From a virus, in IMG/VR virus record IMGVR_UViG_3300043772_000927, positions 1-29,741 of that record: a stretch of DNA of 29,741 nucleotides, one strand, 5' to 3'. The notes under the pieces were generated by a model. That model worked only from the letters and a program-made list of their open reading frames with translations. It was not told where the DNA came from and searched no databases. A program made the translations under genes and the position numbers. Of the stretch, positions 1 through 29,741 are shown piece after piece. Position 1 is the first letter of the stretch. Each line of letters starts with the position of its first letter.

Positions 1-739
1 CTCGCATCAATGCTGTGGGATGGTTATACCCAAAATCCAATCCGTATACATAGTTGACAAACCTAGCAGGCCTATGTGGTATGAATGACCAATTAGAGTA
101 GATGTTACTCTTGCTGATTGCTTTCTCTCCCAGTGCATAGATTTGGTAGAGTGCCTCATCCGTTCTCTTCAAGTCCTCTATCTGCGCTCTGATACTTTGA
201 GGTAAGAATGGGTTATCCTTATACGTTGACTTGATGAGTATGCTCTCATCCTGTGGTAGCTCATACAGCCATGAGGTAGATTCACTAGGATTATAATCGA
301 AGATTAGCTTGTCCTCAGTACGCATATTTATTTGGGTGTAGTCATCGAAATAAAGTTCGTTGGCCTCATTCATCCAAGCTATATGCCTTTTACGGCCCCT
401 TATCTTTTGCTCATCATCCACACTAAAGAACTCCACTATGCTACCATTAGGGAAGGTGTAGATGTGCTCACTCTTGTTATGGTCCTCCAATGAGTAGATG
501 CCTAGGTCCTTGAGTATCTCAATGAAGTCACGCATCACCGTGGCTCTCAGCGCAGGGAATGTCTTTCTGATGATAGATACTACCTTGTTGTTATTCTGAA
601 GGCAGTAGATGATAACTAACTGACATAGGCTGTAGGTCTTGGATGACCTTGACCCTCCCTCATTGATAACGAATCTAATAGCATCATCATTGAGTGCTGC
701 ATAGTTCTTCTCAAATATGACTGTGCTCTTTATCTCCAT
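1..739 (-). CDS. terL: Terminase large subunit, N-terminal ATPase part (left copy, cut by window edge)
   Basis: This is the second copy of the TerL gene seen complete at 28204-29355. It holds about the first 246 residues: the ATPase domain with the Walker A region and the start of the linker to the nuclease. The 3' end runs off the left edge, so this is a cut by the contig boundary and not a gene decay. The reading frame stays open throughout despite about 10% nucleotide difference from the right copy. Its start (base 739) matches the start at 29355. It lies downstream of TerS and overlaps the 55-aa protein by 29 bases. Confidence 0.93.
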   Translation of the reverse strand, partial: MEIKSTVIFEKNYAALNDDAIRFVINEGGSRSSKTYSLCQLVIIYCLQNNNKVVSIIRKTFPALRATVMRDFIEILKDLGIYSLEDHNKSEHIYTFPNGSIVEFFSVDDEQKIRGRKRHIAWMNEANELYFDDYTQINMRTEDKLIFDYNPSESTSWLYELPQDESILIKSTYKDNPFLPQSIRAQIEDLKRTDEALYQIYALGEKAISKSNIYSNWSFIPHRPARFVNYVYGLDFGYNHPTALMR

Positions 740-878
740 TAGCTATTTGGTATGCATTCATTAACATAGCCATCTGCCTGCCATCGGTAGCTACTGCATT
801 TCTATCTATCCTTACCTGAACTCCTTTCATTCGGTAGATGTAGTCCTCCACCACAGCACACATAAAATCAATCTGCAT
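711..878 (-). CDS. 55-aa protein overlapping both TerS and TerL
   Basis: This small gene begins MQIDFMCAVVEDYIYRMKG and ends KEHSHI. It overlaps the TerS end by 11 bases and the TerL start by 29 bases in another frame. The second copy at 29327-29494 differs by 13 bases, yet only three residues change (D/E, N/R, T/S) and there is no stop or frameshift, which is the pattern of a protein under selection. No domain is recognised. The place between the terminase subunits suggests a packaging accessory protein or a translational coupling device; both are inference. Confidence 0.75.
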   Translation of the reverse strand: MQIDFMCAVVEDYIYRMKGVQVRIDRNAVATDGRQMAMLMNAYQIANGDKEHSHI

Positions 879-1290
879 CAGGACGAACTATGGTTACCTG
901 TATGCTCTCTATCTTCTCACCCTTGGAGGTAGTGTCAACTCTCTCGGTTAGGTTGTTAAGTCGTTGGGTGATGGATGCATTGTACTGACCGGTCATGCCT
1001 CCTTCGATTTGGTCCATTCGAATCTCCTCCTCTATGCGTGAGCAGATTGTGGCATACTCAGAATATCGACCATCCTTGTTGCAAAAATAATCATTCACGG
1101 TTTGCCCTTTGCTGGCGGCAAAAGACCTGAATCCCACCTGAGTAAGTGGTCTCTCCAATGGAATTGCTGTAGCCTCTCCTGTCTTATTTGATAGTGAATA
1201 TGAATATCTAGGATTTTCTTTACACCATCTCTTATAGGCTTCAAATAAATCCCACATATCCTCAGGTGTTGGTATGTGCTTTGGTCTCAT
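868..1290 (-). CDS. Putative terminase small subunit
   Basis: A 140-aa protein immediately upstream of TerL, the usual place of the DNA-recognition subunit of the packaging motor. It begins MRPKHIPTPEDMWDLFEAYK, and the PKHI-TPE-(D/L)W-LF start resembles small-terminase or DNA-packaging proteins of Bacteroidota phages. The middle (about residues 45-85) looks helical and could be the DNA-binding part; the end is rich in charged and beta-prone residues. Its ATG overlaps the stop of the upstream gene by four bases (ATGA). The name rests mainly on position and the N-terminal resemblance; I see no diagnostic catalytic motif. Confidence 0.65.
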   Translation of the reverse strand: MRPKHIPTPEDMWDLFEAYKRWCKENPRYSYSLSNKTGEATAIPLERPLTQVGFRSFAASKGQTVNDYFCNKDGRYSEYATICSRIEEEIRMDQIEGGMTGQYNASITQRLNNLTERVDTTSKGEKIESIQVTIVRPDAD

Positions 1291-5866: not shown

Positions 5867-6304
5867 ATCATTGAAAAATTCAACGAAATCATCAAAATTT
5901 TTGGCTATGTAATAGGTGCCTCCTGCTCTCTCGATATTCTCTTGATATCTTTTCTGAGCTTCAGATTGCCTATCCTTGCCAATCTTGACTTCAATCTTAA
6001 CTGAACGACCCTTGATTGTGGCAGATATATCGGCACTACCAGCTGTGCTTGTGCCTTTTGTCCAAGTAACACCGATGACCTTTCCTGCTGTGGTCTTTTT
6101 TTCTCTAGCAGTACCCATCGTATTGATGCGTTCGGCTTGGTATCCTTGGTAGTTTATGAAATCGCAGATTGCTCTTGTCAATCCGTTAGCTGTGCTGTCT
6201 TTGTACATGGTCTTTGGAATATAATCAGGTGGGTAATTAGGGTGAGTAATGGCATAGCGTTGTAGCTTCAGCTCATGCATCATTGTCTTATATTCTTTTT
6301 TCAT
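5846..6304 (-). CDS. VRR-NUC-type nuclease
   Basis: A 152-aa protein. Residues about 70-135 form a small PD-(D/E)xK nuclease of the VRR-NUC type: Gly-Ser-Ala-Asp (GSADISATIKG), then SVKIEVKIGKDRQSEAQKRY with the E-x-K and Gln motif, and ending in a helix with GGTYYIAKNFDDF. Such proteins act on branched or flap DNA and in phages may act as resolvases or debranching enzymes before packaging. The N-terminal 60 residues hold a helical extension. ATGA overlap with the primase-helicase upstream places it in the replication unit. Confidence 0.8.
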   Translation of the reverse strand: MKKEYKTMMHELKLQRYAITHPNYPPDYIPKTMYKDSTANGLTRAICDFINYQGYQAERINTMGTAREKKTTAGKVIGVTWTKGTSTAGSADISATIKGRSVKIEVKIGKDRQSEAQKRYQENIERAGGTYYIAKNFDDFVEFFNDFVNKCN

Positions 6305-8616
6305 TGTTCATCGGTTAATTCAAAGTATCTACCGTGTTGGTCGCGATTCTTTGTGAATTTATAATTCTTGTATGAGGCATATGACTGCACCCATTTGATA
6401 TATTTGCGACTATCTAGGTCTTTGAAGCCATTCGTGTCTGCTTGGAACGCTTCCATTGATGTCTTGTTGTACAATCTCACATTCAATGGTACATTCCCAT
6501 CCATCACAAAGTCATAGAATTCCTTACAGGTATTCTGAATGAATCTCTTCGCATCTGCATTAATTGATTTGCTCTTGATTAAACCTACCTGAAGATATTT
6601 TTGAAGATTGGATAGCATATAATTGTCAAAGTTTGACCATTCGTCAGTAGTCCATTCATCAAACAATAGCTTACCATATTCATCTTGAGGATTACGTTGT
6701 GAGTTGAAGTATTGAAAGAATTCAATCTCGTGCCTTCTTCGGTCATGAGAGGTACCTGCACCAGCAATGACATAGTTGGTAGTGATAACTATCTTAGGAC
6801 TTCGTTCAAAAGGAATGTATATCTCATCCTTATTCTTTCGGTTGACCGGTATTCCCTCGGTTATTAGTGAAAATAGCTGTTCAAAATCGAAGTGCTTCTT
6901 TACATCATCGAAGGCAAGTACCTGAGTATCCATGTTGACCCTTTGATACACGAAATCATTCTTGCTAGGATTGTATGCTTTACCATCTATCTTGATAATC
7001 TTTCGGATATTACCGATGGCTGTCAACATCAATGACTTACCACTGCCCCCATTAGGATTGTCATTGATTTCTTGGTCATTAAATATGATAGCCTTTTGGT
7101 CAGTCTTGTCTTTGAAGGTATGAATCAGATATCCTAGCGTTGATTCCATAGCATTAATTCTATCCGAATCTTGTGCAGACACCTTATGTACAAAATCCTG
7201 AAAGTTATTATCGTGAATCGCGATTTGGTTATAATTTCTTCGTATGATTTGCTCCTTCCAAATATAGCCATCGATATCAATGTAGCTAAGTAGCTTCACC
7301 TTATCTTTAGTTACCTTGACTACACCATTCAGAAATGGGATATAAGATGAGTACCTATCATCCTGCAATATTTTCATATCGATTGACTCTAGCATATTCA
7401 GGTGACTTTCAGTAAATAGATTAGCTGATTTGGCACAATGGTTATATACATTCAATTCATCCTTTTTAAGCAGATACTTCAAAACAAAATCCTTAATGAG
7501 TTCCACTGAGCTTTCAGATACCTTATTCTCCTCGATGTATACATATGTAGGTTTGTTACTTCGCTCAGGATAGTACTTCGCAAATCCATGCTTCTGAAGG
7601 AATTTAGCATAGTCATGAGGCATGATGGTTACCTTCTTGCCATCCTCCTGCCAAAAGACATCATCAGTATCCTGCACCTCATTTTTTACTGATTCAATTA
7701 TCTTGCTGTTGACTCCTAGCTGATTCTGAATATCCTCTTCATTGTTCCCTTCTTTCAATTTAATTTTTACCTTATTCAACGTGTAGCTATCCTCAAAATA
7801 TCTCGTGTTAAAATTGCTTGATTTGTATGCATTGCTCACGGTGTTATTGATTTCGTTAGCTGTGAAATCATCCTGCTCATATTGAAGGAGATATTGCTTC
7901 GCAGCATATTGGTCGACACCATACTCACACATACAACAGGCAACTTTGAACGTCCAATTATTTCTGCCCTGTTCAAACACCCCATGATTGAACTTCATCA
8001 CAAGCTCTATGATTCTATCCTCATTGGCAATCGGAAGCACTGCTATCTTTTCTGCCTTATGATATCCCTTATCTTGAGCTATACCAGGGAAAACATCGCA
8101 GAATTCATTGAGGTATGCATTAGGGTCGTATGATTCAAAGCATACACGACTCACATTGCCATTGGCTGAGTCAAAGTAATTACTTTGTATGTACTCCTTG
8201 AATGCTTCAAATCTTCTTTTGTGTTCAAACTTGTCTGATTCAGGTATACGAATCACCGCTTTAAGTCCATTTCCACTAGGTGAAGTGAACATCATATATA
8301 CATATGGACATTCCATGAGCTTTTTTCGTTCTGATTCCATAGTTTGCACATCAGGATACTTATCGAAATCAATAACGCATAGACCACTATGCTCAATAAG
8401 TCCATCATCCTTTCTTTCACTAAATGTACCATTGAACATGATAGCCATCAGTTGCATCTTGCTTTCACTATCTCCTTCTCTGATTTTCTTTATCTTGTTA
8501 ATTAATTCAGGACTTCCGCTCTTTATCCTGTTATATACTTCTATTGCTGTGAGCGTAAATGGGGTCTCTTTTGAGTTGAAGAGAGACCTAAAAACTGATA
8601 TTTTTGGGTTATACAT
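6301..8616 (-). CDS. Primase-helicase, BT4734/VirE-type N-terminus plus SF3-like ATPase
   Basis: A 771-aa replication protein. I start it at 8616 (MYNPKISVFRSLF); the upstream extension to 8682 only translates the local repeat array. Residues about 10-190 match the BT4734/VirE N-terminal primase-like domain, with GLCVIDFDKYPD near 80, SPSGNGLKAVI near 112 and RVCFESYDPNAY near 157. A middle helical linker follows. Residues about 490-680 are a D5/SF3-like helicase: Walker A NPNGGSGKS near 520, Walker B VLAFDDV, sensor SPKIVITTNY and DRRRHEIEF. It probably primes and unwinds at the phage origin. The repeat-rich region directly upstream may be that origin or its operator. Confidence 0.88.
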   Translation of the reverse strand: MYNPKISVFRSLFNSKETPFTLTAIEVYNRIKSGSPELINKIKKIREGDSESKMQLMAIMFNGTFSERKDDGLIEHSGLCVIDFDKYPDVQTMESERKKLMECPYVYMMFTSPSGNGLKAVIRIPESDKFEHKRRFEAFKEYIQSNYFDSANGNVSRVCFESYDPNAYLNEFCDVFPGIAQDKGYHKAEKIAVLPIANEDRIIELVMKFNHGVFEQGRNNWTFKVACCMCEYGVDQYAAKQYLLQYEQDDFTANEINNTVSNAYKSSNFNTRYFEDSYTLNKVKIKLKEGNNEEDIQNQLGVNSKIIESVKNEVQDTDDVFWQEDGKKVTIMPHDYAKFLQKHGFAKYYPERSNKPTYVYIEENKVSESSVELIKDFVLKYLLKKDELNVYNHCAKSANLFTESHLNMLESIDMKILQDDRYSSYIPFLNGVVKVTKDKVKLLSYIDIDGYIWKEQIIRRNYNQIAIHDNNFQDFVHKVSAQDSDRINAMESTLGYLIHTFKDKTDQKAIIFNDQEINDNPNGGSGKSLMLTAIGNIRKIIKIDGKAYNPSKNDFVYQRVNMDTQVLAFDDVKKHFDFEQLFSLITEGIPVNRKNKDEIYIPFERSPKIVITTNYVIAGAGTSHDRRRHEIEFFQYFNSQRNPQDEYGKLLFDEWTTDEWSNFDNYMLSNLQKYLQVGLIKSKSINADAKRFIQNTCKEFYDFVMDGNVPLNVRLYNKTSMEAFQADTNGFKDLDSRKYIKWVQSYASYKNYKFTKNRDQHGRYFELTDEQ

Positions 8617-8622
8617 AGGTTG

Positions 8623-8652
8623 TAAATATAATAAATGACGATAAAAAGACAA
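8623..8652 (-). promoter_or_regulatory. Candidate promoter of the primase-helicase
   Basis: On the minus strand TATATTTA (8623-8630) is one base off the TAnnTTTG -7 element, and TTG (8650-8652) lies 19 bases upstream, the normal spacing. One ATGACGAT repeat (8635-8642) lies in the spacer and another (8656-8663) just upstream, so a protein bound to the repeats would block or guide polymerase. The leader to the ATG at 8616 would be very short. Confidence 0.45.
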
Positions 8653-8811
8653 TAAATGACGATAAATAAAAATCATCGTCATGGATATAAACCAATGCTG
8701 GCTTATGTTTCAGCGATTTCATGACGATATGACGATAAATTTTCCAAAGTACCAATATTTTTTCAGTGTAAAATATGTAAATGGTATATAAGAGAATCGT
8801 CACATCGTCAT
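8635..8811. repeat. Seven-copy ATGACGAT repeat cluster (iterons or operators)
   Basis: In 177 bases the 8-mer ATGACGAT occurs in direct orientation at 8635, 8656, 8721 and 8729. It occurs inverted (ATCGTCAT) at 8675 and 8804, and inverted with one mismatch (ATCGTCAC) at 8796. The first two copies sit in a longer shared 15-mer (ATAAATGACGATAAA) exactly 21 bases apart, two helix turns. The pairs at 8721/8729 and 8796/8804 are tandem and face each other. The cluster lies between the DnaA-like gene and the primase-helicase gene, which fits an iteron origin or an autoregulatory operator. Confidence 0.85.
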
Positions 8812-8821
8812 ATTGACACAC

Positions 8822-8845
8822 AAAAGAGGGAGCCTAGACTCCCTC
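8822..8845 (-). terminator. Intrinsic terminator after the DnaA-like gene
   Basis: On the minus strand GAGGGAG and CTCCCTC form a 7-bp stem around a 6-base loop (8826-8845), followed by TTTT (8822-8825). The stop codon of the DnaA-like gene (8834-8836) lies inside the hairpin. It would end the early small-gene transcript and separate it from the primase-helicase unit. Confidence 0.8.
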
Positions 8846-9334
8846 CTCAGTATTAACCCTTAAAAAATTATGTTCCTCAAAGATAGATACTATCTCGGAT
8901 GATGTCATCTTATCTTGGAACTTTGTTAATAACTTTCGGGCAAAATTACCGGTGATTGTGAGCTTGATTTCCTCGTCACACATCGGCATAACATTGACAT
9001 CAAAGATGCTAATGTTCTCACGCTTCGCTTTGATAAGCTCAGGCATTGGATGAATGAATTTCATGTATCTTGAATCCTTTCTATTGTACCAATACTGGTG
9101 CTCACGCATTCCATGAATAACTGTTGCATGGTGCCGGTTAAAAAACTTGCCTATCATCATATATGTCATGTGTCGATGTGTGTACATGAAGTTGTAAAGG
9201 TAATATCTTTTGTACGTTATGTCTTCTCTCCTGCTTGATGTGTTTAATTTGAATCGCTCAATTAATTCTACGATATCCTCATTAGCTACTTTCATTAGCT
9301 CAAATACTTCTTGGTCTATTTCTCCTCTTTTCAT
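8834..9334 (-). CDS. Stand-alone DnaA domain-IV-like DNA-binding protein
   Basis: A 166-aa protein. Residues about 33-80 match the C-terminal DNA-binding domain of DnaA: SRREDITYKRYYLYNFMYTH, then MTYMMIGKFFNRHHATVIHG, the last part being the DnaA signature helix that reads the DnaA box. The AAA+ ATPase of full DnaA is absent. The remaining 85 residues are a helical, acidic-basic part of unknown role. It is encoded between two repeat-rich control regions and just before the primase-helicase gene, so it probably recognises the phage origin or represses the host-type origin boxes. A transcriptional regulator with this fold is the main alternative. Confidence 0.75.
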   Translation of the reverse strand: MKRGEIDQEVFELMKVANEDIVELIERFKLNTSSRREDITYKRYYLYNFMYTHRHMTYMMIGKFFNRHHATVIHGMREHQYWYNRKDSRYMKFIHPMPELIKAKRENISIFDVNVMPMCDEEIKLTITGNFARKLLTKFQDKMTSSEIVSIFEEHNFLRVNTEEGV

Positions 9335-10757: not shown

Positions 10758-10775
10758 AAGGAATCAGCCTAAAAA

Positions 10776-10820
10776 CTTACGAAATATGTAGTAAAATCAG
10801 GGTAAAGGCTTACGAAATAT
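10776..10820. repeat. Direct repeat CTTACGAAATAT, two copies
   Basis: The 12-mer CTTACGAAATAT occurs at 10776-10787 and again at 10809-10820, 33 bases apart. The second copy overlaps the last codons of the exonuclease gene. Role unknown; it belongs to the same control region as the DnaA-like boxes. Confidence 0.6.
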
Positions 10821-28203: not shown

Positions 28204-29355
28204 CTAAAATGCGTAATATGAATCGTCCGTATAGTACTCCTGTCGGATGTGAGTCGTGGCATACCTGATTGCATCCATGGCATCATCAAACATCTTGACC
28301 GGCTCATCATCAATCATGTCCCCTACTTTTTTCCACTTGTAATTTTCATACTCTTTCCTTAGTGCCTTATTATCCTGGCAGAACACACCAAAGGTCTTGA
28401 TATTGTCAATGCCTTTCTTGACTACCTTGTTAGCATTCTGCACGTCATACCCTGCATTGTTTAGCTCGGCTATGATTTCAGGTCTAGCATAATCTGCTAC
28501 TATGGTGACATTCTTTTCAATGTTGAAGCTTTGCATCTTGTCTATGAGCATTGTAGTAGTCAAGTAGCTTTCATATATCACAGTCTCGATGTAGATGTCA
28601 TTGTCGCACCAATAGACTCGCATCAATGCTGTGGGATGGTTATACCCAAAATCCAATCCGTATACATAGTTGACAAACCTAGCAGGCCTATGTGGTATGA
28701 ATGACCAATTAGAGTAGATGTTACTCTTGCTGATTGCTTTCTCACCTAGGGCATAGATTTGATATAGTGCCTCATCCGTTCTCTTGAGGTCCTCAATCTG
28801 AGCTCTGATACTCTGAGGTAGGAATGGGTTGTCTTTGTACGTTGACTTGATGAGGATGCTTTCCTCAGTTGGTAGCTCATATAGCCATGAGGTTGACTCA
28901 CTTGGGTTGTAGTCAAAGATTAGCTTAGACTCCGTTCTCATGTTCAGCTGAGTGAAGTCATCAAAGTATAACTCATTGGCTTCGTTACACCAGGCAATGT
29001 CACGCTTCCGACCTCGTATCTTCTGCTCATCATCCACTGAGAAGAATTCCACGATTGACCCATTACTAAAGGTGTAGATGTGTTCAGACTTGTTATGGTC
29101 CTCCAATGAGTAGATGCCTAGGTCCTTGAGTATCTCAATGAAGTCACGCATCACCGTAGCCCTCAAAGCAGGAAATGTCTTACGGATGATAGATACTACC
29201 TTGTTGTTATTCTGAAGGCAGTAGATGATAACTAACTGACAAAGGCTGTAGGTCTTGGATGAACGGGACCCTCCCTCATTGATTACGAATCTAATCGCAT
29301 CATCATTGAGTGCTGCATAGTTCTTCTCAAATATGACTGTGCTCTTTATCTCCAT
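28204..29355 (-). CDS. terL: Terminase large subunit, Terminase_3 (PBSX-type) family
   Basis: A 383-aa packaging motor. Walker A is NEGGSRSSKT (residues 26-35), Walker B is DIAWCNEANE with Glu125 (about 119-128), and the nuclease domain starts near 230: YGLDFGYNHPTAL (Asp235), VADYARPEII (Asp288) and MFDDAMDAIRYA (Asp357/358/361). It translocates DNA into the prohead and cuts it. The family often uses headful packaging, which would give permuted ends. Its start overlaps the 55-aa gene by 29 bases. The second copy (1-739) shows the same start and frame. Confidence 0.95.
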   Translation of the reverse strand: MEIKSTVIFEKNYAALNDDAIRFVINEGGSRSSKTYSLCQLVIIYCLQNNNKVVSIIRKTFPALRATVMRDFIEILKDLGIYSLEDHNKSEHIYTFSNGSIVEFFSVDDEQKIRGRKRDIAWCNEANELYFDDFTQLNMRTESKLIFDYNPSESTSWLYELPTEESILIKSTYKDNPFLPQSIRAQIEDLKRTDEALYQIYALGEKAISKSNIYSNWSFIPHRPARFVNYVYGLDFGYNHPTALMRVYWCDNDIYIETVIYESYLTTTMLIDKMQSFNIEKNVTIVADYARPEIIAELNNAGYDVQNANKVVKKGIDNIKTFGVFCQDNKALRKEYENYKWKKVGDMIDDEPVKMFDDAMDAIRYATTHIRQEYYTDDSYYAF

Positions 29356-29494
29356 TAGCTATTTGGTATGCATTCATTAGCATGGCCATCTGCCTGCCAT
29401 CGCTAGCTACTGCCCTCCTATCTATCCTAACCTGTACCCCTTTCATCCTGTAGATGTAGTCCTCCACCACAGCACACATGAACTCAATCTGCAT
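29327..29494 (-). CDS. 55-aa protein overlapping TerS and TerL (right copy)
   Basis: The second copy begins MQIEFMCAVVEDYIYRMKG and ends KEHSHI. Of the 13 bases that differ from the left copy at least nine leave the protein unchanged; three residues change. The overlap with TerL (last 29 bases) is identical in both. Conservation of the frame in two strains is the main support that this hidden gene is real. Confidence 0.75.
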   Translation of the reverse strand: MQIEFMCAVVEDYIYRMKGVQVRIDRRAVASDGRQMAMLMNAYQIANGDKEHSHI

Positions 29495-29741
29495 CAGGAC
29501 GAACTATGGTCACCTGTATGCTATCTATCTTCTCACCCTTTGTTGTGGTGTCAACTCTCTCGGTTAGGTTGTTGAGTCGCTGAGTGATGGATGCATTGTA
29601 CTGCCCGGTCATGCCTCCTTCGATTTGGTCCATGCGAATCTCCTCCTCTATGCGTGAGCAGATTGTGGCATACTCAGAATATCGACCATCCTTGTTGCAA
29701 AAATAATCATTCACGGTTTGCCCTTTGCTGGCGGCAAAAGA
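29484..29741 (-). CDS. Terminase small subunit, C-terminal part (right copy, cut by window edge)
   Basis: About 86 residues of the TerS protein seen complete at 868-1290; the first ~55 residues lie beyond the window end. In the shared part two residues differ (Ser/Thr and Glu/Asp). The Met at the start of NDYFCNKDGRYSEY is a GTG-read valine in the full protein and should not be taken as the true start. Confidence 0.8.
   Translation of the reverse strand, partial: SFAASKGQTVNDYFCNKDGRYSEYATICSRIEEEIRMDQIEGGMTGQYNASITQRLNNLTERVDTTTKGEKIDSIQVTIVRPDAD

Follow-up and report, generated by a model that had tools for sequence, protein, structure and literature searches.

What does an array of short repeats, set between the gene for a primase-helicase and the gene for a DnaA-like protein, do in an uncultured phage, and which protein reads it? 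The array lies in a 29,741-base stretch of viral DNA, analysed here as a whole and referred to as the window, and it was originally predicted to be the phage origin, an autoregulatory operator or both, with the DnaA-like protein as a candidate binder. We consider it reasonably probable, from the sequence and its relatives, that the 217-bp gap between the two genes is a replication origin whose iterons are bound by the phage's own primase-helicase, which would also limit its own transcription. The origin and/or operator part of the prediction thus agrees with the conserved array, its geometry and position, and the box within the helicase promoter, while the role of binder given to the DnaA-like protein is not supported. 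The features on which the argument draws are as follows.

6301-8616, minus strand: primase-helicase, 771 aa, with an AEP-type N part, an SF3-like motor and a winged-helix-like C-terminal end
8614-8652, minus strand: Bacteroidetes-type promoter TTG-N19-TATATTTA, with TTG at 8650-8652 and TATATTTA at 8623-8630
8635-8642, plus strand: box ATGACGAT, within the spacer of the primase-helicase promoter
8656-8663, plus strand: box ATGACGAT
8675-8682, minus strand: box ATGACGAT, inverted, paired over the 38-bp spacer with the tandem boxes
8683-8720: spacer of 38 bp, conserved in sequence, without consistent pairing
8721-8728, plus strand: box ATGACGAT, inner tandem pair
8729-8736, plus strand: box ATGACGAT, inner tandem pair
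8737-8795: AT-rich stretch of 59 bp, a candidate melting region separating the two box sets
8783-8797, minus strand: element ATTCTCTTATATA, at the end of the AT-rich stretch and adjoining the left boxes
8796-8803, minus strand: box GTGACGAT, one mismatch, left set
8804-8811, minus strand: box ATGACGAT, left set
8823-8850, minus strand: probable intrinsic terminator of the DnaA-like gene, GAGGGAGTCTAGGCTCCCTC followed by a T run
8834-9334, minus strand: stand-alone DnaA domain IV-like protein, 166 aa, the conserved neighbour of the array

The array and the genes beside it

The make-up of the array is as first described, with seven copies in 177 bases (8635-8811), six of them exact ATGACGAT and one the single-mismatch GTGACGAT, in tandem and in facing pairs, and with a shared 15-mer, AATAAATGACGATAA, found twice (8630-8644 and 8651-8665) at an offset of 21 bp. 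It lies, as had been stated, between the DnaA-like gene and the primase-helicase, and occupies the gap between them. Chance does not explain it. The prediction was right in placing the array beyond chance, but its figure of one such 8-mer per 65 kb was not, because both strands and the AT-rich composition bring the expectation to 0.77 per window; against this, the window holds six exact copies, none of them outside the array. Six or more copies appeared in none of 100 dinucleotide shuffles of the whole window, and when the 217-bp intergenic stretch was itself shuffled, some 8-mer occurred six times in 1 of 1000 trials.

The primase-helicase gene begins at 8616, with an ATG, and not at the 8682 of the ORF caller, as indicated by the MYNPKISVF/MFNPKISVF beginning conserved in relatives, and the array is therefore wholly intergenic. 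A promoter matched to the Bacteroidetes consensus (PMC7366714) directly precedes this ATG (8614-8616), and in many relatives a -7 element of the TATATTTG type stands at the start of the helicase gene or close to it. The overlap with a candidate promoter noticed at the outset agrees with this, the box at 8635 falling between the -33 and -7 elements. Relatives likewise keep the terminator of the DnaA-like gene.

The primase-helicase matches the Pfam families BT4734-like_N and PriCT_1 as well as PHROG 28855, and its residues 68-170 match the AEP PrimPol_Db family (NF040562, E=1.6e-13); the Pfam and PrimPol_Db matches identify the N part as an AEP-type primase. The protein also carries a P-loop, GGSGKS, which we read from its context as SF3/D5-like. 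Its full-length AlphaFold model is poor (mean pLDDT 54.6), and the leading fold matches of that model, namely RepB' primase, the SaPI5 primase-helicase, NrS-1 PrimPol and ASFV PrimPol, are weak and none is significant alone. The last 60 residues form helix-helix-strand-strand in this low-confidence model, and residues 717-769 match winged-helix chains with Z about 5, a value that belongs to a poor overall model. A PDB profile search by sequence with the primase-helicase returned nothing, which places any similarity to the solved SaPI Rep proteins below detection.

The DnaA-like protein gives a Pfam Bac_DnaA_C match (E=1.9e-6) that falls under the curated cut-off, and it also matches DnaA residues 362-415. 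Its best fold matches are to DnaA domain IV, with E above 0.1, and the match to domain IV is the only one in its 166 residues, which lack an AAA+ domain.

The host of this uncultured phage is probably a member of the Bacteroidetes. No prophage naming a host was found in sequenced bacterial genomes, so the assignment comes from the promoter type and from the distant primases of Flavobacterium, Polaribacter and Cellulophaga phages. The ends of the window (1-1125 and 28617-29741, terminase genes) are 89.8% identical and thus inexact repeats of each other. This points either to a genome of about 28.6 kb, circular or with terminal redundancy, that was closed with a strain variant, or to a tandem arrangement of two related units. 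Elsewhere in the window, a 26-nt direct repeat, AATCAGNNTAAANNCTTACGAAATAT, is present twice, 33 bp apart (10762-10820); it lies between genes and overlaps the end of the exonuclease-like gene.

Conservation and concerted change of the boxes

Searches with both proteins recovered the locus in about 100 distinct viral contigs, whose primases are mostly 58-89% identical to that of the window. All examined relatives that keep the gene order have the array and follow a common plan. The terminator is followed by the left boxes (at an 8-bp pitch), ATTCTCTTATATA and an AT-rich stretch of about 60 bp; then come a tandem pair of boxes, a 38-bp spacer, a box in inverted orientation, additional boxes and the promoter where the helicase gene begins. 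Close relatives with the same two genes and without the repeats, which would have counted against the original prediction, were looked for and not found. The spacer, located by an automatic search that allowed 34-42 bp and failed in L294 and L319, measures 38 bp in nearly all loci, including the deeper loci L305, L347 and L293, with 39 bp in the L163 clade and 37 bp in L238.

Conservation of the 8-mer in related phages, named at the outset as a check, was found for the array and its geometry but not for the exact word, which drifts in concert between clades. The core of the box in the window's own clade is GACGAT, and across the loci the three core boxes shift together, reading ATCGTCAT, ATCGTCAC, ATCGTCCA, AGCGTCAC, TGCGTCGC, GTTGTCAC or TTTGTCGC/TTTGTAAC, so that the arrangement of pair, 38 bp and inverted box stays constant while the word changes. 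The element ATTCTCTTATATA is kept even where the boxes of relatives differ completely.

No such array was seen directly upstream in phages with primases of 36-38% identity, and none is evident in the distant cultured phages elemoE, Panino and phi46:1; in MW202828 (38%), ATGTCGA/TGACAT repeats are suggestive only.

The protein that the boxes follow

Boxes that change in concert can be compared with the proteins that might read them. We used rank correlation and partial Mantel tests with permutation on 37 loci whose primases are more than 3% apart, and on an extended set of 42 loci to which five deeper ones had been added, with unreliable box calls in L294 and L319. Box distance correlated with primase distance (rho 0.80 for 37 loci and 0.70 for 42) and with the distance of the DnaA-like protein (rho 0.55, 37 loci). 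The partial correlation of box and primase, given the DnaA-like protein, was 0.70 in the 37 loci (reached in 0 of 500 permutations) and 0.62 in the 42 (0 of 1000), whereas that of box and DnaA-like protein, given the primase, was 0.02 (189 of 500) and -0.07 (740 of 1000), values that all come from related sequences whose phylogeny the permutation removes incompletely. The primase-helicase, rather than the DnaA-like protein, probably reads the boxes, judging from these comparisons. No domain of the primase clearly stands out in tracking them, the C-terminal and middle parts behaving similarly, and L305 has window-type boxes though its primase is nearer the TTTGTCGC clade.

Among the other explanations, the one that survives best, though we regard it as unlikely, is that the DnaA domain IV-like protein recognises the boxes as modified DnaA boxes, serving as an initiator or a repressor. 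Its gene adjoins the array and is nearly always present, the Bac_DnaA_C and domain IV fold matches (E above 0.1) fit such a binder, and TTATCGTCA and the DnaA box TTATCCACA have 7 of 9 positions in common. Binding by this protein is nevertheless not supported, because the boxes do not follow it once the primase is given. Its recognition helix varies while ATCGTCA-type boxes stay constant (HHAT in the window, KNHAS in L065, MTHGS in L062): the HHAT of the window stands against DHST in most neighbours with identical boxes, and L062 combines a DnaA-like protein of the L082/L083 type with window-type boxes. Conversely, the same DHSS helix occurs both with window-type ATCGTCAT and with TTTGTCGC/TTTGTAAC boxes. 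Exact DnaA boxes (TTATNCACA) are absent from the array and occur once in the window (10729), without enrichment. The gene is also found away from the array, in phage contigs of 113-115 kb (L222-L228) with neither a primase relative nearby nor an array. The reverse situation is seen in L315, with a primase of 51% identity, where ATCGTC boxes, ATTCTCTATATTA and the TATATTTG promoter element are present and a DnaA_C match is absent from the 35-kb record, which may be incomplete; another small HTH gene (L315:2344-2648) occupies the place of the DnaA-like gene before that array. The product of the DnaA-like gene, a stable neighbour of the array, may be an accessory factor, may regulate other genes or may act at the DnaA boxes of the host.

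Slightly less probable still is that the array is a transcriptional operator of the primase-helicase and nothing more, bound by its own protein or another regulator, with replication starting elsewhere. One box does lie inside the TTG-N19-TATATTTA promoter, and the whole array is bounded by a terminator and a start codon; but a promoter operator needs less than is seen here, where seven or eight positions are conserved across 180 bp together with AT-rich DNA between two box sets and a fixed element of 38 bp, and the boxes track the primase-helicase and no dedicated repressor. GC skew and third-position skew gave no origin signal in the window, whose genes are almost all on one strand.

We find it improbable that another phage or host protein binds the boxes and that the correlation with the primase stems from a phylogeny common to the replication module. 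A correlation with the boxes is also seen for the nuclease-like gene immediately downstream (partial correlation 0.34 given the primase), and in the closest clade no single residue of either protein consistently tracks the variation of TGACGAT/GGACGAT or ATGAC/GTGAC. Against this, the DnaA-like gene, which is equally adjacent, and other genes of the module show no such correlation; ERF, the exonucleases and upstream ORFs added nothing once the primase was accounted for. A structured DNA or RNA element, such as the stem-loop origin proposed for pRN1, is the least probable reading and was rejected for want of covariation and of any Rfam match: such an origin has been proposed for AEP-SF3-winged-helix proteins (PMC4234260) and the inner boxes are inverted, but in a comparison of 50 distinct elements the 38-bp spacer was not consistently paired (about 46% of symmetric positions, mostly in the boxes).

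A candidate origin and its place among known systems

If the primase-helicase reads the boxes, it would bind these 8-bp sites probably via its winged-helix-like C-terminal end plus other parts, and the tandem pair together with the inverted box 38 bp off, once bound, would position helicase rings. The 59-bp AT-rich stretch between the box sets would then melt, and the fused AEP primase would begin synthesis on the melted DNA. Because the box at 8635 lies inside the helicase promoter, between -33 and -7, the same protein bound there would also repress its own gene. This scheme, in which binding, melting, origin activity and autoregulation are inferred, is modelled on SaPI Rep, Cch2 and P4 alpha; SaPI Rep and Cch2 bind iterons beside their own gene (PMC7581432), as does P4 alpha according to its citation in PMC4234260.

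The closest parallel is offered by the SaPI/PICI origins, at which an initiator helicase, with a fused or adjacent primase, is encoded beside two iteron sets separated by AT-rich DNA (PMC6092414, PMC7581432). The phage locus resembles them in that the primase-helicase start (8616) adjoins the array (8635-8811), a likeness of adjacency alone, and in that box sets at 8635-8736 and 8796-8811 flank a stretch (8737-8795) of 78% A+T, the 98th percentile of the window. It differs in the position of the array, which overlaps the promoter on the 5' side of the gene, whereas the SaPI/PICI origin lies immediately 3'; in the AEP/BT4734-like primase; and in not being a satellite, since terminase-, portal-, tape-measure- and tail-like proteins were recognised by inspection in the window. 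P4 alpha differs in turn by its TOPRIM primase, as against the AEP type found here (BT4734-like_N, PriCT_1, PrimPol_Db). The array would thus work like a PICI or P4 origin yet belongs with neither, being 5', non-satellite and non-TOPRIM.

The domain order of AEP, SF3 helicase and C-terminal DNA-binding end is shared with pRN1 ORF904 and the BIP-1-type replicases, for which a stem-loop origin 3' of the gene has been proposed (PMC4234260); in the phage locus the iterons instead precede the gene, and no stem-loop is conserved across the 50 elements compared. With bacterial oriC it has in common a DnaA domain IV-like protein encoded beside the array, and it departs from oriC/DnaA in the missing AAA+ domain, an array free of exact DnaA boxes and the independence of the boxes from that protein.

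Two iteron sets around an AT-rich stretch had been described as unique to PICIs; if our reading is true, such a plan extends to an ordinary phage that uses an AEP primase-helicase and has the iterons on the 5' side of the gene. We suggest tentatively that widespread uncultured phages may replicate with an AEP-SF3 primase-helicase acting on 5' iterons that combine a rigid core with a concerted word, accompanied by an accessory DnaA domain IV protein that might, for example, couple replication to host initiation or interfere with it. Since the geometry held while the box changed several times, swapping arrays and C-terminal domains among the natural variants would be a direct test of initiator-origin recognition, and these variants supply a sequence signature with which origins can be found in uncultured phages.
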